Source: Deltaproteobacteria bacterium
GTDB lineage: Bacteria > Myxococcota_A > UBA9160 > SZUA-336
DNA length: 41,259 bases
Assembly: GCA_019311115.1 (NCBI GenBank)
Contig: JAFDDB010000013.1
Span: forward strand, 1-41,259
Direction: 5' to 3'
The position numbers were made by a program, and so were the translations under genes. The number at the start of each line of letters is the position of its first letter. The stretch's first letter is position 1. The notes under the pieces were generated by a model, which made no database searches, was not told where the DNA came from, and saw nothing but the letters and a program-made list of their open reading frames with translations. Positions 3,006-41,259 of this stretch are shown in pieces.

Positions 3006-4370
3006 ATGCGCAACCGGCTGGGGATCGTCGCGTGCCTCGCGCTCCTGACGGCCTGCGCCGTGCTGATGCCGGAGTCCTGGCAGCTGCGCGGCTGGCAGCG
3101 GCAGGCCTCGCAGCTGCGTGGCCTGAGCTTCGACGTCGGCCCGCCGCTGAAGCTCCGCCACGTCACCGCCGACGAGGTACACGCCATCCTGACCCGCGAG
3201 ATGGCCGCCAGCTACCCGGCCGACTACGTCGCCGCCTACGAGCGCGCCTACAAGGCGCTCGGACTTCTGCCGCGCGAGCTCGACCTGGTCAAGACGCTGC
3301 TGGAACTCCAGCGCGACCAGATCGTGGGCCTCTACACGCCCTCGGACGACGTGATGTACGTGCGCCGCGACTTGCCGCCGGGCCAGGACGACATCGACAC
3401 CATCGTCATCCACGAGTTGGTCCACGCTCTGCAGGCGAGGCACTTCCCGCAGTCGATGGGGATCCTGCGCGGGCTCCGCCACAACGACGACGTGGCCGCG
3501 GGCATCGCCGCCGCGACCGAGGGCGACGCGTCGCTCACGATGCTGGGCGTGCCCGACGACGACCTGCCGCTCCACCGCGACCTGCGCAGCGCCAGGCGCG
3601 TGCGCCGGATCATGATGGTCGACCTCGAGCACCCGACGGGCGGGTTCGCCCGCGCGCCGCGGCTGCTTCAGCGCTCGCTGATCTTCCCGTACGCGGAAGG
3701 AACCGTCGTCGCCGCGCTCTACTACCAGCAGGGCGGCAACTGGGGCCTCGACCGCATGATGACCGACCCGCCGCTGTCGTCGCTGCACTTCTTCGAGCCG
3801 GAGCTGGGAGCCGGCGAGGGCTTCCCCGTCGAGTTCGTCGGCCTGCCGCTCGAGCCGCTGGCCGCGGCCGTGCCCGCAGGCTGCGCTCCGGGTCATCACA
3901 ACGTGGCGGGCGCGCTCGGCCTGCGCGTGCTCTTCGAGGTCCACGTCGAGGACGCGACCGAAGAGGAGATCACCGGCGTCGTCTCCAGCTGGAGAGGCGA
4001 CCGCTTCCTCCACGTCGGCTGCCCCGACGGTGACGGCTTCTTCTGGCTGACGCGCTGGGCCAGCGCCCGCGACGCGCAGCGGTTCGCCGCGCTCTACGAG
4101 CGCGCGGCCCCGTCCATCGCCAGCAACGCCGAGCTGGCGGCGCCCCCCGCCGTGCGGGTTGAAGGCCGGCAGGCCGTGGTCTTCACTTCCCGCCTGTCCG
4201 AAGCGCTCCCCGTCGTGCTCCACGGCACGCGCGTGCGCGCCTACCACAGCTTCGGCGCCTGGCTCCGCGACGACTGCTTCCCGGAGTCTCCGTGCCCGGG
4301 CCCCGGCTGGGGCGCCGCTACTGGCAGAGGTAGGGCTCGCCGAAGTGGACCGCGCCCTGCGGCGCGGTGA
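3006..4370 (+). CDS. Putative zinc metalloprotease lipoprotein (HELVHALQ motif)
   Basis: A 454-residue protein beginning with a short lipoprotein signal (LALLTAC, lipobox Cys at residue ~17). A gluzincin-type HExxH motif is visible: H136-E137-x-x-H140 in VIHELVHALQ, with a candidate third ligand Glu ~32 residues later (AATEGDA). The protein is otherwise unfamiliar; a lipid-anchored envelope metallopeptidase is inferred. It follows nadE by 6 nt. The last 53 nt overlap the convergent gene ending at 4318; the C-terminal ~18 codons are low-complexity (GRGRARRSGPRPAAR) and may be read-through past the natural domain end, but no earlier stop exists in frame. Confidence 0.8.
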   Translation: MRNRLGIVACLALLTACAVLMPESWQLRGWQRQASQLRGLSFDVGPPLKLRHVTADEVHAILTREMAASYPADYVAAYERAYKALGLLPRELDLVKTLLELQRDQIVGLYTPSDDVMYVRRDLPPGQDDIDTIVIHELVHALQARHFPQSMGILRGLRHNDDVAAGIAAATEGDASLTMLGVPDDDLPLHRDLRSARRVRRIMMVDLEHPTGGFARAPRLLQRSLIFPYAEGTVVAALYYQQGGNWGLDRMMTDPPLSSLHFFEPELGAGEGFPVEFVGLPLEPLAAAVPAGCAPGHHNVAGALGLRVLFEVHVEDATEEEITGVVSSWRGDRFLHVGCPDGDGFFWLTRWASARDAQRFAALYERAAPSIASNAELAAPPAVRVEGRQAVVFTSRLSEALPVVLHGTRVRAYHSFGAWLRDDCFPESPCPGPGWGAATGRGRARRSGPRPAAR

Positions 4371-5304
4371 AGCCCGACCACTCGACCAGTGCCAGCGCGT
4401 CGCGCGTGTCACAGGATCCGTTGCGGTCAACGTCGCAGTAGAGCGAGTCGAACGACCCTGCGGGAGGGCTGAAGCCGGCGTGCCGCACGATCTCGAGGGA
4501 GTCGGACGCGTTGATCTTGCAATCGCGATTCACGTCGCCGCAGAGGCAGGCGCGCGGGATTCCGTGGGGGCCGGGTGTCTGGGAGGTTCTCTGGGTGTTC
4601 ACCTCCTGTCCGGGATTCGCGATCTCCGGGCAGTTGTCGAGCCGGTCGACCACCGAGTCCCCATCCAGATCGGGAGCGTCGATCTGCAGCGTGGACACGA
4701 GGAGCGACCCTTGCATCCCCGGCGGGTAGAAGCCGATCGTCGTCGCAGCGACCTGGTACACGTAGGTACCCGGCGGGAGCGTCCGGCTCTCGCCGACCTC
4801 GGGCGGCGAGACCGAGGACAACGAGGCACTCAGCACCTCGATGCCCGAGTCCGCCGCAGTGAGAGACGCATCCATGCTGTAGAACTGGTTGTCCGAAAGG
4901 CCGAACAGCCACAGCGTCACGTCGTGCTCCGCCGTCAGGGCGACGTAGAACCTGGCGCTCCCTGCACTGACCGCGCTCGGTACCCCCGCAGTATTCTGAT
5001 CTCCGGCCGAGCGAAGTCCGATCCGCACGAGATCCGACTCCACGATGAGCATCATGTTTCCCTCGACGCTGGCACCGCAGGCAGTGCCAAGCGGCAGCGT
5101 CGCCGCCCGGGCGCCCGATCCGCTGACGTCGCTGTCTTCTACGACGCCCCGGGAGCACATCACCCGGGCGGACACCTGGAGGCCGGCCGGGTCGGGCGCA
5201 ACGACGAGGTCGGCCCGCGCCGCACCGGCCACCGTCGCCAGCAGGACCGACAGCAGGACCGACAAGGCACCGGTCCGGATCAGGGAGTCGCGAATCGATG
5301 CCAC
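4318..5304 (-). CDS. Secreted protein with thrombospondin-type-3 and dockerin-like calcium-binding repeats
   Basis: A 328-residue exported protein. It has an N-terminal signal peptide (hydrophobic core to ~residue 27, then GAARA|D). A beta-rich domain of unknown function follows (~33-215). A TSP3-type repeat (DLDGDSVVDRLDNCPEIANPGQE) comes next, then a Cys-rich dockerin-like pair with loops CGDVNRDCKINASDSLEI and CDVDRNGSCDTRDALAL, and the chain ends in PYLCQ. The same C-terminal module occurs twice in the metallophosphoesterase at 38.2-40.4 kb. Such repeats bind Ca2+ extracellularly; function is otherwise unknown. The start is GTG at 5304, 6 nt downstream of a TAAAAT hexamer with no Shine-Dalgarno, suggesting a leaderless mRNA. 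It is convergent and overlaps by 53 nt with the metalloprotease gene. Confidence 0.85.
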   Translation of the reverse strand: MASIRDSLIRTGALSVLLSVLLATVAGAARADLVVAPDPAGLQVSARVMCSRGVVEDSDVSGSGARAATLPLGTACGASVEGNMMLIVESDLVRIGLRSAGDQNTAGVPSAVSAGSARFYVALTAEHDVTLWLFGLSDNQFYSMDASLTAADSGIEVLSASLSSVSPPEVGESRTLPPGTYVYQVAATTIGFYPPGMQGSLLVSTLQIDAPDLDGDSVVDRLDNCPEIANPGQEVNTQRTSQTPGPHGIPRACLCGDVNRDCKINASDSLEIVRHAGFSPPAGSFDSLYCDVDRNGSCDTRDALALVEWSGFTAPQGAVHFGEPYLCQ

Positions 5305-5316: not shown

Positions 5317-5379
5317 CGCGGCTGGCCGAGTGACTGAGGTGTCCTCCGTCACGTCCGCCGGTGGACCGACGGGCCGGAC

Positions 5380-5409
5380 GTGCGGAGTCGAGAGCCCTTC
5401 CGCTACGCT
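5380..5409 (+). promoter_or_regulatory. Promoter of tRNA-Arg(TCT): GTGCGG-N18-TACGCT
   Basis: GTGCGG (5380) and TACGCT (5404) are separated by 18 bp, and the tRNA begins 9 bp after the -10. The same two hexamers, spacer length and -10 to tRNA distance recur before the truncated tRNA-Arg at 40469. That recurrence is the main evidence. The -35 is unlike TTGACA. Confidence 0.55.
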
Positions 5410-5418
5410 CCCTTCCAC

Positions 5419-5495
5419 GCGCCCGTAGCTCAATTGGATAGAGCAGCGGGTTTCTACCCCGCCGGTTGGGGGTTCGAGTCCTCCCGGGCGTACCA
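5419..5495 (+). tRNA. tRNA-Arg (anticodon TCT)
   Basis: A full cloverleaf can be drawn: acceptor GCGCCCG pairs with CGGGCGT (first pair G-U), D stem GCTC/GAGC, anticodon stem GCGGG/CCCGC with loop TTTCTAC (anticodon TCT, codon AGA), T stem GGGGG/CCTCC with loop TTCGAGT, discriminator A and an encoded CCA. It lies between the divergent repeat-protein gene and the end of the methyltransferase gene on the other strand. Confidence 0.97.
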
Positions 5496-32225: not shown

Positions 32226-32456
32226 GAGAGGTGCCGGGCGGGACGCGCCCGGCGCAGCGGCGGCCATCTTAGGGCATCTCTGGCGGGACGCCCATCGGGA
32301 AGACGGGGCCGGCCGGGGCTGCTGCGCCGCCGTGCTGGAGGCCGCTGCGCACCCCCTGCGGGCCCGTTCTCGGGGGTTTGACACGACAGGGCCTGTGCCG
32401 AGGTTCGGCCCGAGCGAGGGACATCGCCCGGATCGGCGGTGCCTCGGGGAGGTGGA

Positions 32457-35090
<2,634 letters not shown>

Positions 35091-35148: not shown

Positions 35149-36177
35149 ATGGGGGCCCTCCGAAACGCAGCGCTCGCTCTCGCAGCGCTGGGGCTGATCG
35201 GCTACGCCGTCGGACTCGGTGTCTACGCCGGCGCCTCGACGCGCCCGCGCGTCGCGAGCCAGCCGCGCGACGCGGAAGAGGCGCGGCGGGCGATCGAGCA
35301 ACTGGGCCTCGAAGAGGCCTATCCCTTTGAGCACCGCTTCGTCGACACGCCGCACGGCCGAATGCACTACGCGGACGTCGGCGCGGGCGACCCCGTGCTC
35401 TGCCTGCACGGCAACCCGACCTGGTCGTTCCTGTACCGTGAGTTCCTGCGCGGGCTGTCCGACCGCTCGCGCGTCGTGGCGCCGGACCTGATCGGCTTCG
35501 GGCTGTCGCAGAAGCTTCCCGACCCGGGCGCCTACTCCATCGAAGGCCACATCGAAGACGTGTCCACGCTCGTCGAGGTACTCGACCTGCGCGAGGTGAC
35601 GCTGGTGATGCAGGACTGGGGCGGGCCCATCGGTCTGGGCGTGGCGATGCGCCATCCCGACCGCGTGCGCGCCCTGGTGGTGATGAACACGGTCGGCTTC
35701 TCACGGACGCCGAACGTCGGGCTCCCGCTGGCGCTCCGCGTGCTGCGCGCGCCCGTGCTCGGCGAGCAACTCGTACAGGGTCTCGGGCTCTTCCAGCGCG
35801 CGGTCATTCCCGCGGCGATCGCGCGCCCCGAACGACGCACGCCCGAGGTGCTGCGCGCATACCGCGAGGTGCAGGGCAGCTGGGACGACCGCGCGGGGAC
35901 GCTGGCGTTTCCCCGCCTGATTCCGCGCGGCCCCGACGACCCGGTGACGCGGTTGCTGGAGCGGTCCGACGCCTACCTGCGCTCGTTCCGCGGCCCCGTG
36001 CTGATCGTCTGGGGAATGCGAGATCGCTTCTTCGGGCCGGCGCTGCTCGCCGAGTGGCGCAGCCGGTTCCCCGACGCGCCCGTCCTCGAACTCGACCGCG
36101 CCGGGCACTACCTGCAAGAGGACGCGGCAGACCGGATCGTGCCGCGGATCCGCGCCTTCCTGGACGCTCAGCGTTAG
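35149..36177 (+). CDS. Membrane-anchored haloalkane dehalogenase-like alpha/beta hydrolase
   Basis: A 342-residue protein with an N-terminal membrane helix (~8-30), then an alpha/beta hydrolase with haloalkane-dehalogenase hallmarks: HGNPTWSF (87-94, Asn as a halide-stabilising residue), nucleophile D156 followed by W157 in MQDWGGP, an Asp at ~292 (WGMRDRF) and catalytic H320 (AGHYLQED). Asp instead of Ser as nucleophile separates it from esterases. The family hydrolyses carbon-halogen bonds, but many members have no known substrate, and the membrane anchor is unusual. It starts 58 nt after clpB with a probable leaderless promoter of its own. Confidence 0.87.
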   Translation: MGALRNAALALAALGLIGYAVGLGVYAGASTRPRVASQPRDAEEARRAIEQLGLEEAYPFEHRFVDTPHGRMHYADVGAGDPVLCLHGNPTWSFLYREFLRGLSDRSRVVAPDLIGFGLSQKLPDPGAYSIEGHIEDVSTLVEVLDLREVTLVMQDWGGPIGLGVAMRHPDRVRALVVMNTVGFSRTPNVGLPLALRVLRAPVLGEQLVQGLGLFQRAVIPAAIARPERRTPEVLRAYREVQGSWDDRAGTLAFPRLIPRGPDDPVTRLLERSDAYLRSFRGPVLIVWGMRDRFFGPALLAEWRSRFPDAPVLELDRAGHYLQEDAADRIVPRIRAFLDAQR

Positions 36178-36207
36178 ACGTAGACGCTCAGTCGTAGACG
36201 TGCACGC

Positions 36208-36909
36208 TCAGCCGTAGATGCCGCCCCCGTGGATCAGCGCCACGAGCGTGCTGAAGAGTGGTCCGCCGATCTGCGCGAACAGCATCCACGCGACGACCAG
36301 GCCGAAGAGCGCCGCCGGTCCGGTGCTCAGCGTCTCGCGCAGACGCAGGGCCGTCTCCTGGGGAAGCACGAGGCCCAGGATCGCGGCGCCGTCGAGCGGC
36401 GGCACCGGGATCAGGTTGAACAGGAAGAGCACCGCGTCGACGGTCAACAGCATCGACAGGAAGCGGCCGAAGTTCTGGAGCAGTTGCGTGTCGGCGCCCA
36501 CGTAGCTCGAGAACGAGACGCGGTCGGGTGCGAAGAAGAGACCCGACTCGAGCCCCGCGCGCAGCAGCAGCAGCGACAGCAGCGCCAACGCCAGGTTCGC
36601 GCCCGGGCCGGCGGCCGCCATCCACGCGGCTCGGCGCGGGTAGCGCTGCTCCCACATCGGGTCGTAGGGCGTGCTCGCCCAGCCGATCGGCCAGCCGCGC
36701 ATGAACACCGTGATCAGCGGCACCAGGATCATGCCGAAGGGCTCGCGGCGCATGTGCGGAATCGGGTTCAGCGACACCTGCCCCGCGGCATACGCCGTCG
36801 AGTCGCCGCCCAGGTGTGCGACCAGCGCGTGCGCGCCTTCGTGCGCCGTCACGGCGACGACGAACGCGAGGTACCAGACGACGGCCTCGAAGGGGTCCGA
36901 GATCCCCAC
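36208..36909 (-). CDS. Site-2 protease family (M50) membrane metalloprotease
   Basis: A 233-residue protein with ~5-6 membrane helices, HExxH at residues 23-27 (AHEGAHALVAH) and the second conserved motif NLIPVPPLDG near residue 170, whose Asp is the third zinc ligand. This short form lacks PDZ domains and resembles the FIA-type/YwhC-like group. It may cleave membrane-bound regulatory or signal peptides within the bilayer; the substrate is unknown. The upstream acyltransferase gene ends 8 nt before it, so the two form an operon. Confidence 0.92.
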   Translation of the reverse strand: MGISDPFEAVVWYLAFVVAVTAHEGAHALVAHLGGDSTAYAAGQVSLNPIPHMRREPFGMILVPLITVFMRGWPIGWASTPYDPMWEQRYPRRAAWMAAAGPGANLALALLSLLLLRAGLESGLFFAPDRVSFSSYVGADTQLLQNFGRFLSMLLTVDAVLFLFNLIPVPPLDGAAILGLVLPQETALRLRETLSTGPAALFGLVVAWMLFAQIGGPLFSTLVALIHGGGIYG

Positions 36910-36917
36910 CGCGCGGG

Positions 36918-37772
36918 CTAGCCGAACCAGCCGCGCCGCCGCTCCAGCGCTTCTTCTACCAGCAGCGAGATGTTGTCGCGCACGCGGTCGACCTGCTCGC
37001 GCACGTGCACGTCGTCGCTCTGTGCGTCGCCCTCGAGCCAGATCGGCTCACCAAAGTGGAGCCGGTACTTCACCGGCAGAGGCACGAAGCCGAGCGGTCC
37101 GAGCAGCGGAAAGGTCGCCGTGATCGGGAAGGCGGGTGAGCCGATCAGGCGACCCAGGAACTTGGAGTCGTAGAGCCCGGGCGACTGCTCCTCGGAGCCG
37201 ACGATTCCCACCGGGACGATCGGCGTCTTGGTCTCGAGCGCGAGCCGTGCGAAGCCCGAGCCGAAGCGCTGTAGCTGGTACGCCTTGCTGTACGGCTTGA
37301 TGAAGCCGCGGTGCCCCTCGGGGAAGACCATGATCGCCTCTTCCGATTCGAGCAGGCGCCGACAGTTCTCGGGCGTGCCGACCACGGCGCCCACGCGCCG
37401 GATCAGTTGGCTGTACCAGGGGATGCGCGGCAGGTAGAACTCCGCCATGCCGCGTGTGATCCGGGGCGGCTCGGCCTCGAGCAGCATGGCGAGCCAGAGC
37501 ATGGCGCCGTCCATCGGCAGCGTGTTGCCGGCGTGGTTGCCGATCAGCAAGACGCGTCCGGGCGGCACGTTCTCGATGCCGCGCGTCTCCACCCGGAAGT
37601 AGTAGTGGTAGAGGAGGATGCTGCTCCAGGCGAGCCGGGCGCACCACTCCGGCTCCAGGCCGAACTCGTCGTAGCCGTACTCGTTGAGCTCGGTCGGGAT
37701 CTGCTTGATCCGGTCGCTCACCTCGTCGATTCGTTCACGAATCGAGAGCGGCAGCGGCAGCGAGAGGGCCAT
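36918..37772 (-). CDS. Lysophospholipid acyltransferase family protein (PlsC-like)
   Basis: A 284-residue acyltransferase with the catalytic block NHAGNTLPMDG (H80, D88) and the glycerol-phosphate-binding FPEGHRG (150-156). The longer His-to-Asp spacing (seven residues rather than four) is that of the NHSGG...PxD subgroup. It probably acylates a lyso-lipid at the inner membrane. ATG 37772 is preferred over an upstream ATG at 37847, which would put the start codon inside the palindrome at 37831. A perfect-looking TATACT lies 6 nt before ATG 37772 with no Shine-Dalgarno, suggesting a leaderless mRNA. Confidence 0.9.
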   Translation of the reverse strand: MALSLPLPLSIRERIDEVSDRIKQIPTELNEYGYDEFGLEPEWCARLAWSSILLYHYYFRVETRGIENVPPGRVLLIGNHAGNTLPMDGAMLWLAMLLEAEPPRITRGMAEFYLPRIPWYSQLIRRVGAVVGTPENCRRLLESEEAIMVFPEGHRGFIKPYSKAYQLQRFGSGFARLALETKTPIVPVGIVGSEEQSPGLYDSKFLGRLIGSPAFPITATFPLLGPLGFVPLPVKYRLHFGEPIWLEGDAQSDDVHVREQVDRVRDNISLLVEEALERRRGWFG

Positions 37773-37778
37773 TCCGGC

Positions 37779-37784
37779 AGTATA
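37779..37784 (-). promoter_or_regulatory. -10 hexamer TATACT for a leaderless start
   Basis: TATACT on the minus strand, 6 bases before the ATG of the acyltransferase. It is the best -10 match in the window. A CTGCGG 16 bp further upstream recalls the GTGCGG -35 of the tRNA-Arg promoters, weakly. Confidence 0.55.
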
Positions 37785-37830
37785 AGGCCTGCGCGGGAGG
37801 CCGCAGCCGGGCCCCGGGGCCGCCCGGGCC

Positions 37831-37850
37831 GCTATGACGCCGCTCATAGC
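37831..37850. promoter_or_regulatory. Palindromic operator candidate GCTATGA-N6-TCATAGC
   Basis: A perfect 7-bp inverted repeat with a 6-bp centre (CGCCGC), in the gap between the acyltransferase (minus) and the two-TM protein (plus). It shares TATGA-N6-TCATA with the palindrome at 30558. It ends 18 bp before TAGTCT (37869), so it could occupy the -35 region of the plus-strand promoter. Confidence 0.55.
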
Positions 37851-37868
37851 GCCTCGTGCCGACAGGCG

Positions 37869-37874
37869 TAGTCT
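37869..37874 (+). promoter_or_regulatory. -10-like hexamer TAGTCT before the two-TM protein
   Basis: TAGTCT lies 44 bp upstream of ATG 37919 and 18 bp after the palindrome at 37831. No TTGACA-like -35 exists; the palindrome occupies that place, consistent with a regulated promoter. Confidence 0.4.
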
Positions 37875-37918
37875 GACCCTACCTGCCGTCGATGTGCGGC
37901 CAGACCAGGGGATACCAA

Positions 37919-38170
37919 ATGGTACGACTGAACAGGCGCCTCGGCTTCAACCTGATGGAGTGGGTCTACATCGTCTTCGTCGCGTACACGGGCTTCCTGA
38001 TCGGCAGCTTCAACGTCGCGCGAAGCCCTGAGGAAGGGCTGGCCGGTGCGGCCTCGGCACTCCTCGCCCCGATCCTCTACACCGCCCTCATTGGCCTGGG
38101 CCCGATCTTCATGTTCCGGGCTGGCGTGCACTTGGTCAGCCGCGCGAACGAGGAGAGCGGAGCGGACTGA
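37919..38170 (+). CDS. Small two-helix membrane protein
   Basis: An 83-residue protein with two predicted membrane helices (~12-34, WVYIVFVAYTGFLIGSF; and ~47-70, LLAPILYTALIGLGPIFMF) and short polar ends. No family recognised. ATG 37919 is favoured because AGGGGA lies ~9 nt upstream; an in-frame ATG at 37892 would add nine residues. It stands alone, between a palindromic operator candidate and the metallophosphoesterase gene. Confidence 0.65.
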   Translation: MVRLNRRLGFNLMEWVYIVFVAYTGFLIGSFNVARSPEEGLAGAASALLAPILYTALIGLGPIFMFRAGVHLVSRANEESGAD

Positions 38171-38232
38171 TCCCCGTCGCTGGCGCGACGGTCGAAGTGA
38201 CGGCGCGCACGCCAGGGCGGCGATCCGCGTGA

Positions 38233-38238
38233 GATTCT
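38233..38238 (+). promoter_or_regulatory. -10-like hexamer GATTCT for a leaderless start
   Basis: GATTCT, then exactly 6 bases, then the GTG of the metallophosphoesterase, with no Shine-Dalgarno. The hexamer keeps the key A at position 2 and T at position 6. The spacing is identical to that of TAAAAT before the other calcium-repeat gene (5311). Confidence 0.4.
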
Positions 38239-38244
38239 GCGCCC

Positions 38245-40396
38245 GTGCGTCGGGCAGCGGACAGGGCGCGAACGGGGTCGATTCGGGCCGCCGCCGTGTC
38301 GCTGGTGCTGGCTTTCGCTTGGGCCTCTGCGGCGGCGGCCGAGCCCCCGTACCGCACGGTCGTCGTCTTCGGCGACACACAGCACCTAGTCTGGAACGGA
38401 CGACCCTCGGACTACGCGAAGTTCGTGGTGATGGTGGACTGGGTGATCGCGAACCGCGAAGCCGAGAACATCGACTTCGTGCTCCACGTCGGGGATGCCA
38501 TCCAGAACGGCTATCGGACGTCCTACCCGCTGGATCCCGCCGCCTGTGCGGGCGCGGTGGCTGACGCCAGCGCGGATCACTTCCTGGATGGACTGCCGCT
38601 CGAGCGACCCGCCCGACGACGGGGTCTGCCCGACGGGTGAGGCGACCGGCTGTTTCTCCGTCGGGAATCGGTGCTTCTCGTGCGCCAGGGCCCTCTGGGA
38701 GACGGCCACCGAGTGGACGAACTTCAATACCCAGTGGGCGCGACTCAGAGACCACGGAGTTCCGAACGCCATCGTCCAGGGAAATCACGACAACGACGGA
38801 GGGCTCGACGCGAACAACCCGCTGGATCCGAAGAAGGGCTTCGCCCAGTTCTACGGCCCTTCGCAGATGACGGGGACTCCCGGCTACATCGAGTCGTTCG
38901 TCGGCCCGATCTACTTCGTCATCTCGCATGCGTGGAAGTTCGACCTGGGTGGCCGAGACGTGCTCGTCGTGGGAATGCCGTTCGAGCAGGGAGACCTGAG
39001 CGATCACGCAGCGTGGGCGGACGCACTCATCGGCCGGCCAGAGTACGCCTCGCTGCCCGTGATCTTCCTGAAGCACAAGATGTTCAACGGTGTGAACCTC
39101 CAGGGAACGAGTCGGGCCGGGTGGAGTCAGTTCGGGGCGCCGAACGCCGACCGGATCTTCATGAGCGTGTGGGGGCACTTCGAACTCGGAGAGGTGAGTA
39201 TCCGGCCGGTCGATCACGAGGCCACGTCCACGTCGTACGACATGCTCTTCGTGCGAAGCGACTGGCAGAGGATGCAGGAGCTCGAGGGCCGGGTCGGCCT
39301 GCACTGGCTGAGCCTTGTCCGCTTCTACAGCGATCCGAACGGGATCGACGAGGTCGAGGTCGAGGCGTTCTCGCCCTGGCGGGCGGCGCAGGAGCCGAAC
39401 TCGCCCGAAGCCTGGTTCGACGGCGACCCGGAGCGCGAGGGCGCCACGTGGCTGCCACGGCAGCCCTTCAGCATCGACTACGACATAGATCACGACGGCC
39501 TGGTGAACGGTGCGGACAACTGCCCCCTCCACGCCAACCCGGGTCAGGAGGCCTTGCCCGACGGAGACTCGCTCGGGGACGTGTGCGACAACTGTCCGAC
39601 GATCGGCAACGAGAACCAGTTCGACTTCGACGGGGACGGGATCGGGAGCCTATGTGACGTCTGCCAGTTCGTCGCGGATCCGAGCCAGGCTCTCGCCGCC
39701 GGTGGCGCGCGCGACTACGGAGGAGCGGGCTGCGCCTGCATCTGTGGCGACGTGAATCGGGACTGTGTCTTGGACACGTCCGACGCGCTCGAGATCGTAC
39801 GGCGGGTGGGATTCGAGTCCCCGGCCGTCCACTTCGACGAGGACTACTGCGACGTCAACGGAGATGGCGCCTGCAACTCGAGCGACGGCCTCGAGATCAC
39901 GCTCTGGTCCGGCTTCGCGGCGCCCGCCGTGGAGTTCGATCCGCTCGGCTACTGCGAAGCGCTGCACCCGCCCGACCAGGACGAGGACCTCGTGCCAGAC
40001 CCGTTGGACAACTGCCTCCGGGTCGCGAACCACACCCAGACAGATGTGGACGGCGACAGTCTCGGCGACGCCTGCGACAACTGCATCCCCGTGGCCAACC
40101 CGGGCCAGGAAGTGAACGCACAGGGAGCGGCCCAGAGCGTGAGACCCGACGGCGTCCCGTGCGCGTGCCTCTGCGGCGACGTGAATCGCGATTGCGTCAT
40201 CGACTCCACCGACAGACTCGAGCTCACCCTCCACGCGGGCTTCGCACCGCCCGCGATCTCGTTCGACGCCGCGTACTGCGACGTGAATCGAGACGGAGCC
40301 TGCGACAGCGGCGACGGTCTGGAGCTGAGGCTCTGGTCCGGCTTCGCGCCGCCCTACGCCCAGGTCCAGTTCGACGCGCCCCATCTCTGCCAGTAG
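38245..40396 (+). pseudogene. Secreted calcineurin-like metallophosphoesterase with calcium-binding repeats, interrupted by one frameshift
   Basis: The N-terminal part (38245 to ~38600, first frame) has a signal peptide ending ASAAAA|E and two phosphoesterase metal motifs: VVFGDTQH and LHVGDAIQNG. The rest (from ~38582 in the next frame to 40396) has the third motif QGNHDNDGG, the remaining domain, TSP3-type repeats (DIDHDGLVNGADNCP...; DGDSLGDVCDNCP), and two copies of the Cys-rich dockerin-like module (CGDVNRDCVLDTSDALEI..., CGDVNRDCVIDSTDRLEL...), ending HLCQ. The motifs belong to one domain, so the two frames are one gene with one extra base or two missing bases near 38582-38605. I cannot tell a true mutation from an assembly error. 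Predicted to be exported and Ca2+-stabilised; substrate unknown. Confidence 0.8.
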
Positions 40397-40429
40397 GGCA
40401 GGGCAGGGCGGGGCCGAGCGAGCCCGGGC

Positions 40430-40459
40430 GTGCGGAATTCCGAGCCGGTCCGCTACGTT
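40430..40459 (+). promoter_or_regulatory. Promoter of the truncated tRNA-Arg: GTGCGG-N18-TACGTT
   Basis: Same hexamers, same 18-bp spacer and same 9-bp distance to the tRNA as at 5380-5409. The bases between the elements are only partly alike, so the elements appear to be conserved by function rather than by a very recent copy. Confidence 0.55.
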
Positions 40460-40468
40460 CCCCCTCGC

Positions 40469-40511
40469 GCGCCCGTAGCTCAATTGGATAGAGCACCTGA
40501 CTTCGGATCAG
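40469..40511 (+). pseudogene. 5' half of a tRNA-Arg (anticodon TCG), truncated after the anticodon stem
   Basis: The acceptor 5' strand GCGCCCG, complete D arm and anticodon arm (stem CCTGA, loop CTTCGGA with anticodon TCG, start of the 3' stem TCAG) are intact. The sequence then diverges: the last anticodon-stem pair is lost, and no variable loop, T arm or 3' acceptor strand follows within the next 300 bp on this strand. The first 27 nt are identical to the intact tRNA-Arg(TCT) at 5419. It cannot give a tRNA as it stands. Confidence 0.8.
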
Positions 40512-40661
40512 CGCCAGACGTTCTACCGCGTTCCGCGCCGTATCGCTCGGTAAGCCATTCCGCGGAGTTAGCCCCCTCGTGAGTCGCTCCGTTTCATTGC
40601 GGGCCATCCGGTTCTCGAGGTCTTCCTCACCGACTTCCGCACCGGCTCGCTATGGCCTCGG

Positions 40662-40706
40662 TGGTGAGCGCGCCCGGGATCGAACCGGGGACCGGCCGAT
40701 TAAGAG
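40662..40706 (-). pseudogene. 3' half of a tRNA-Lys (anticodon CTT), from anticodon loop to CCA
   Basis: On the minus strand: anticodon loop CTCTTAA, 3' anticodon stem TCGGC, variable CGGTC, T arm CCCGG-TTCGATC-CCGGG, acceptor 3' strand CGCGCTC, discriminator A, CCA. The sequence that should pair with TCGGC (needs GCCGA) reads GCGTT, and no D arm or acceptor 5' strand precedes it. A fragment from the anticodon loop to the 3' end is the usual size and position of a tyrosine-recombinase attachment site left by an integrated element. Confidence 0.72.
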
Positions 40707-40770
40707 AACGCGACGACCCCGAGGAATGACGGGGGGTTGCGTCTCCGGCCTTGCAGGCGGGTGCATACAG

Positions 40771-40807
40771 CGGCACAGAGCGACGGCACCACGGCACTAG
40801 ACGGCAC
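40771..40807. repeat. Four CGGCAC repeats (three as ACGGCAC)
   Basis: CGGCAC begins at 40771, 40784, 40792 and 40802, in the same orientation, ~65-100 bp from the tRNA-Lys 3' fragment on the side away from its CCA end. Such short direct repeats beside a tRNA attachment site could be arm-type integrase sites; chance is possible in GC-rich DNA. Confidence 0.35.
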
Positions 40808-41093
40808 CAGAATTCGACGGGGTGGCAGCGGCCTCCGCCCTGCGCGGCCTAACTCACTGACGCTGTCCCTCAAGCCGCAGCCTCGGTGATCGGGATCTGG
40901 TTGGGTTCCGCGCGCGCGCGAAATCTACACGTGAACTGCCCGCCCGGGGCGCAACGACACACGAAAGTGATCCCTTCGTTGCGGCAAAGATGTAAAGGTG
41001 TGGTCCTCGACGATCTACGCAGACATATGACCACTTCGTAGCGAATTTCCGGCGTGTCACGTCGTATCTGTGAGACGATGGCGACCCCCTCCA

Positions 41094-41189
41094 ATGTGTG
41101 TAGTTGAGATTCTGGAGACGCTCTCCGCCGATGAGCGGCAAGCCCTGCTCGACCTCCTGCGCCGTGTCCGTGATAGGCTCGAGGCCTGA
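41094..41189 (+). pseudogene. Possible C-terminal fragment of a MarR-like regulator
   Basis: A 31-codon frame ending ILETLSADERQALLDLLRRV...LEA, which looks like the last helix of MarR-family proteins (LxxLSxEExxxLxxLLxxL). The frame is closed by a stop at 41028-41030 and has no winged-helix sequence before it, so it can only be a remnant or a coincidence. No ribosome-binding site. Confidence 0.3.
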
Positions 41190-41259
41190 GTGACTTCCGG
41201 AAGGCCCCCCGGGGCAGGCCCCGAGTGTGATCGCCGTCATATCTCCTCCGGTGAGGAGA

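Follow-up and report, generated by a model that had tools for sequence, protein, structure and literature searches.

Breakage of a native tRNA-Arg(TCG) gene, probably by integrative DNA, in an uncultured Deltaproteobacteria bacterium

The native tRNA-Arg(TCG) gene of an uncultured Deltaproteobacteria bacterium ends directly after its anticodon arm, and was probably broken by insertion of integrative DNA (of tyrosine-integrase type and partly phage-derived) that has since decayed. The window analysed is the entire contig C103 (41,259 nucleotides) of the MAG G000, and ends 748 nt past the tRNA break. The MAG comprises 4.17 Mb in 262 contigs, with an estimated completeness of 93.8% and an estimated contamination of 2.9%, and lacks intact Cys, Ile, Phe, Trp and Tyr tRNA genes. 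Its named relatives, likewise MAGs, carry the labels Deltaproteobacteria, Myxococcota or Candidatus Binatia.

The broken tRNA-Arg(TCG) gene

The 5′ half of tRNA-Arg(TCG), consisting of the acceptor 5′ strand, the D arm and the anticodon arm to TCAG, is located at 40469..40511 on the plus strand and is identical (43/43) to the 5′ half of the intact gene in the relative G010, confirming the original prediction of a 5′ half cut after the anticodon arm at exactly these coordinates. After the same 43 nt the G010 gene reads on as GGGGTTCGGGGTTCGAGTCCCTGCGGGCGCGCCA, and the window departs there: the match stops after the anticodon-stem TCAG, the next base being C where G is expected. A covariance model of tRNA 5′ halves built in the present analysis (R2) gave 42 bits for 40469-40512 (E 4e-6 for the genome), the sole strong 5′ half in the MAG outside the intact tRNAs; no other bare 5′ half was detected in the MAG by this model. 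The Rfam tRNA model matched 40469-40522 with 23 bits, below its cut-off of 29 bits, and ARAGORN called only tRNA-Arg(TCT) and tRNA-His in the window, leaving the tRNA-Arg(TCG) half uncalled.

The 3′ half present in the relatives is absent after 40511; the restored tRNA that classical integration leaves at one junction is thus not found here. As predicted, unrelated DNA stands in its place. The stretch at 40512..40661 has no tRNA similarity, diverges from all intact relatives at 40512 and is presumed to be the end of the inserted DNA, reaching from the break to a tRNA-Lys 3′ half. Comparison of the 90 nt after the break with a tRNA-Arg 3′ half, in search of a degenerate copy, gave a score no better than that of shuffled sequence. 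On the other side, the upstream flank (40424..40468, plus strand) is the presumed promoter region. A segment of 72 bases (40424-40495), 45 of which lie upstream of the broken tRNA, shows 83% identity with 5374-5445 at the intact tRNA-Arg(TCT) gene of the same window. The promoter had been described as intact: the resemblance of the 45 upstream nucleotides to the tRNA-Arg(TCT) flank agrees with this description, but a scan of the flank for the sigma-70 consensus found nothing, and the promoter itself is therefore only presumed.

Native position of the gene

The broken gene is the native tRNA-Arg(TCG) and not a stray copy, because its 5′ neighbours flank the intact gene in genomes of the same family. 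The family order is ClpB, hydrolase, M50-type protease, acyltransferase, tRNA-Arg(TCG), 5-oxoprolinase and PolB, not every gene being present in each genome, and the window keeps all four 5′-side anchors in this order. They are ClpB (32439..35090, plus strand), with orthologs of 72-79% identity located 5′ of intact tRNA-Arg(TCG) in G006, G007, G009 and G010; an alpha/beta hydrolase (35149..36177, plus strand), with orthologs in G006, G008 and G009; an M50-type protease (36208..36909, minus strand), with orthologs in G008 and G010 and also adjoining tRNA-Arg(TCG) of G006; and, as the nearest conserved anchor, an acyltransferase (36918..37847, minus strand), with orthologs of 68-71% identity in G006, G008 and G009, located 64 bp from tRNA-Arg(TCG) in G006.

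Beyond tRNA-Arg(TCG), G006, G008 and G009 carry the gene for a protein of about 1185 aa, named 5-oxoprolinase-like from its sequence, and a family-B DNA polymerase gene comes next in G006. The 5-oxoprolinase gene of G000 runs off the end of contig C126 into C159, the two contig ends overlapping by exactly 114 nt, so that C126 should hold the region directly after tRNA-Arg(TCG). In five of ten same-family genomes tRNA-Arg(TCG) gave one match per genome, and the gene is probably single-copy in the present genome, the MAG of which is incomplete. Among the public genomes with the same acyltransferase, tRNA-Arg(TCG) was found nearby in one of 16 loci, that of CSMAG_947, where it is intact.

The 3′ tail and the inserted DNA

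A search of the genome for the matching 3′ half had been proposed with the original prediction, and the missing tail was located on C126, the contig predicted by synteny. It consists of the last 22 nt of tRNA-Arg(TCG), from the T loop to CCA with one mismatch, at about C126:9249-9274 on the minus strand. The tail was found by BLAST using the locus of G006 and is too short for the 3′-half model, the search of the MAG with which detected no tRNA-Arg(TCG) 3′ half. The sequence TCGAGTCCCTCCGGGCGTGCCAGTCG agrees at 25 of 26 bases with positions 56-81 of the G006 locus, counted from the tRNA start and including 4 nt past CCA. Positions 43-54 of the tRNA, about 12 nt, are in neither piece. No single contig spans both pieces, and from the gene order C103 and C126 appear to be adjacent.

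A tyrosine integrase fragment that has lost its N-terminal part (C126:9348-10118, minus strand; PF00589 6e-23, phrog_1 1e-55) adjoins this junction, as in classical integration, its stop codon being 74 nt from the tRNA-Arg tail. Ahead of it lies a partial gene for a phage terminase small subunit (phrog_309 1e-11). The displaced native 3′ fragment that classical integration leaves at the far junction is likewise present, only from the T loop on.

On the C103 side, a displaced tRNA-Lys(CTT) 3′ half, from the anticodon loop to CCA (40662..40706, minus strand), begins 150 nt past the tRNA-Arg break. It scored 49.8 bits with the 3′-half model (R1) and agrees at 44 of 45 nt (98%) with the intact gene on C159. 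Upstream of it lies a presumed attachment-site arm (40729..40816, minus strand), 79% identical to C91:6015-6111, a stretch that precedes a tRNA-Pro(TGG) 3′ half. A second, damaged tRNA-Lys(CTT) 3′ piece was detected by the 3′-half search at C126:10392-10420, in the same relative orientation as the C103 piece; its flank is similar to the native tRNA-Lys flank. In G006, tRNA-Lys(CTT) is located about 9 kb downstream of tRNA-Arg(TCG). The insert is unassembled between C103:41259 and C126:11001; on the two contig ends it is a pile of integrative-element remnants, partly phage-derived. For the 748-nt tail of the window, a search for phage relatives gave a match limited to the tRNA-Lys part, against phage tRNA genes, and its 128-aa ORF and a 52-aa fragment gave no match in Pfam or PHROGs. 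As a candidate attP, the same right flank was sought in viral contigs; three exact 18-mer matches lay outside any tRNA context, at the level expected by chance, and were rejected.

Decoding of CGA

CGA accounts for 5.7% of the arginine codons in 91 sampled genes, inside the range of the relatives, and clpB contains three of them. The other tRNA-Arg anticodons in the MAG are CCG, CCT, GCG and TCT, tRNA-Arg(GCG) being located at G000:C248:15557-15633. Since CGA codons are in normal use, some tRNA reading CGA must exist, and the earlier argument that tRNA-Arg(TCG) is needed unless another tRNA reads CGA is sound. The check for an intact tRNA-Arg(TCG) or tRNA-Arg(ACG) that went with this argument gave neither in the incomplete MAG: no ACG (inosine) arginine tRNA was found, and the lack of an intact tRNA-Arg(TCG) is uninformative, as many other needed tRNAs are likewise lacking.

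Origin of the split

In the proposed course of events, strand exchange by a tyrosine integrase would have taken place within the anticodon loop of the native tRNA-Arg(TCG) gene, at a shared core of at most 11 nt, CTTCGGATCAG, and tRNA-Arg(TCG) function would have been lost at the junction. The inserted DNA would afterwards have decayed and taken up further insertions, while an intact CGA-reading tRNA would be located elsewhere, perhaps within the unassembled insert. Bare tRNA-Arg(TCG) 3′ halves are carried by the same-class genome G014, indicating that tRNA-Arg(TCG) is an integration target in the class. Two of the explanations first offered, splitting of the gene by an element or a scar of rearrangement, are supported by the presence of the 3′ tail beside an integrase on the contig predicted by synteny. 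The 5′ break in the anticodon stem and the 3′ break in the T loop, however, do not make one clean integration site; with about 12 nt missing and the tail starting in the T loop, more than one event, or a deletion, is needed.

Insertion of integrative DNA may have led to the present structure in two ways. In the favoured one, which is plausible though somewhat short of probable, classical integration restored the tRNA, and the 3′ half was lost afterwards through a deletion or a nested insertion, once another copy of tRNA-Arg(TCG) had made it dispensable. Every other bare half in the MAG is a 3′ half, the mark of classical integration, and the neighbourhood is a graveyard, with its truncated integrase, terminase fragment and partial tRNA-Lys halves. 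Restoration of the target tRNA is also described as the rule for genomic islands in the Islander study (PMC4383910). Against this course, a remnant of the restored 3′ half is not visible in the window, the break falls exactly at the end of the anticodon arm, and the 5′ half shows no decay (43/43 with G010), so that the loss must be recent.

The other way, which we consider doubtful, is integration at a short core, after which the tRNA was never restored and the element supplied a replacement tRNA. This would resemble tRNA-dependent lysogeny, in which integration at cores of 8-17 bp breaks the host tRNA for good and the isotype is provided by the phage (PMC10865867). A core of 11 nt, starting with CTT in the anticodon loop, precedes the end of the 5′ half, and the left junction fits with a core of 11 nt or less. 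Phage-type genes are present within the insert, and a substitute would be required because the tRNA is apparently single-copy in the relatives and CGA codons are in normal use. However, no element-borne tRNA-Arg(TCG) was seen on the assembled contig ends, the insert itself being unassembled, and the 3′ piece begins in the T loop, away from that core; the missing intact copy adds nothing to the case in a MAG with so many other tRNAs lacking.

Far less probable than an insertion is an assembly artefact or strain mixture, in which two unrelated sequences were joined at about 40511. Such an error is conceivable here, as the MAG is divided into 262 contigs, with many of the breaks close to repeats, and its contamination is estimated at 2.9%. 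A mis-join in the assembly graph needs a repeat reaching the join, but the MAG contains the sequence before 40511 a single time and has no second full copy of the DNA that follows. Moreover, the missing tail, likewise broken, was found on the contig predicted by synteny. The suggestion of a mis-join at a repeated tRNA sequence is thus unlikely, since no repeat assembled elsewhere has its edge at the break and both pieces are independently syntenic.

A functional split or intron-containing tRNA, the halves of which are joined after transcription, had also been suggested and is hardly credible: the two pieces agree in strand when placed in the syntenic order, which an intron would require, but neither contains positions 43-54 with the 5′ strand of the T stem, so that complementary halves of a trans-split tRNA do not sum to a full tRNA, and no Rfam match to a group I intron or other catalytic RNA was found at E <= 1 in 36000-41259, a search that covered the 748 nt past the break up to the contig end.

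tRNA 3′ halves elsewhere in the genome and class

Bare 3′ halves are the usual trace of integration at tRNA genes. At least 15 full or partial bare 3′ halves were found in the MAG, as against one bare 5′ half. Tandem 3′ halves bound short units in G000 for fMet (C205), Pro-TGG (C91 and C36), Pro-GGG (C12) and Arg-CCT (C119), and in same-class genomes for Lys-CTT (G011:C166) and for Pro-GGG, Gly-GCC and Thr-CGT (G014). Integrases adjoin the tRNA or a half in some arrays, but several units, 1.2-4 kb in size, contain one or two genes, none of them for an integrase. These arrays may represent ordinary tandem accretion with decayed members, or may be closer to cassette capture.

On the minus strand of G000:C205 (649-693, 4359-4403 and 6172-6248), an intact tRNA-fMet is followed by two identical bare 3′ halves, each carrying the terminator of the tRNA. 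The units hold one gene each, opposite to the tRNA, and no integrase; the products are an alpha/beta hydrolase with a cyclase domain and a cyclase-AAA-TPR protein. Nucleotidyl cyclases were considered as a special cassette cargo and set aside, as there are 30 PF00211 matches genome-wide and enrichment is not clear. On the plus strand of G011:C166, four identical tRNA-Lys(CTT) 3′ halves (25-69, 1244-1288, 3175-3219 and 4958-5002) are spaced by 1.2-1.9 kb. The units hold mainly one reversed gene each (ankyrin-repeat protein, metallo-beta-lactamase fold and others) and no integrase, and the arms ahead of two halves are nearly identical, giving the look of a cassette array. In G014 (C37, C53, C23, C73 and C87), about a dozen tRNA-Pro(GGG) 3′ halves were detected, many preceded by a conserved arm of about 75 nt; some of these halves have a tyrosine integrase gene that starts within them or ahead of the arm, accompanied by an HTH_17 excisionase-like gene.

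In G000, 3′ halves of the tRNA-Pro(TGG) type are located at C91 (87-131, 1840-1871 and 6134-6178), C36 (5913-5957) and C137:14504-14548; intact tRNA-Pro(TGG) is absent from the MAG, and contigs seem to break at tRNA-Pro(TGG) arrays. A bare 3′ half resembling tRNA-Phe(GAA), of which the MAG has no intact gene, is located at C73:23580-23624 on the minus strand. Three tRNAs called intact by ARAGORN, at L147 (12312-12387), L152 (1435-1504) and L153 (3738-3812), have 5′ parts unlike those of tRNAs and are apparently bare 3′ halves to which a 5′ part was matched by chance. The lineage has unusually many attachment sites at tRNA 3′ halves and short gene units in tandem behind tRNA genes, offering a tractable place to study tRNA genes as sites of gene capture.

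Comparison with known systems

The split locus follows, in variant form, a well-known habit of insertion, from which it departs mainly in its unrepaired junction. As in the islands and prophages that enter tRNA genes through tyrosine integrases, as described in two studies (PMC4383910; PMC9897764), the target is a tRNA gene, the break is in the anticodon region, and tRNA fragments and an integrase stand at the borders. Those islands restore the target at one junction and displace a fragment only; in contrast, the native 5′ half has not been restored here, and the 3′ piece reaches back only as far as the T loop. Where genomic islands accrete in tandem at tRNA genes, several displaced 3′ halves are likewise left, as seen here around one locus and genome-wide, but many of the present units are short and without an integrase of their own. 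The tRNA-Thr fragment beside a recombinase-bearing insert in Caldiarchaeum (PMC3293823) is another bare 5′ fragment produced by a mobile element in an uncultured genome; that case comes from an archaeon in which a complete copy, bearing an intron, lies at a distance of 1.8 kb, whereas no complete copy was seen here.

Lysogeny of actinobacteriophages that depends on tRNA (PMC10865867) may share with the present locus a short core in the anticodon arm, an unrestored tRNA and a target that would otherwise be essential. It differs in that here neither a replacement tRNA nor an intact integrase was seen, the insert being unassembled, in that the second junction lies away from this core, and in that the host belongs to an uncultured lineage outside Actinobacteria. 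In its fullest form the parallel would mean tRNA-dependent integration outside Actinobacteria, in which a short-core element entered the only tRNA-Arg(TCG), the gene was never restored and the element's own tRNA-Arg(TCG) sustains the host, amid cassette arrays of 3′ halves; we regard this combination as unlikely. The split locus illustrates the loss of a required tRNA gene to integrated DNA and leads to the prediction of a compensating tRNA; if found, such a tRNA would extend tRNA-dependent lysogeny to a new group.
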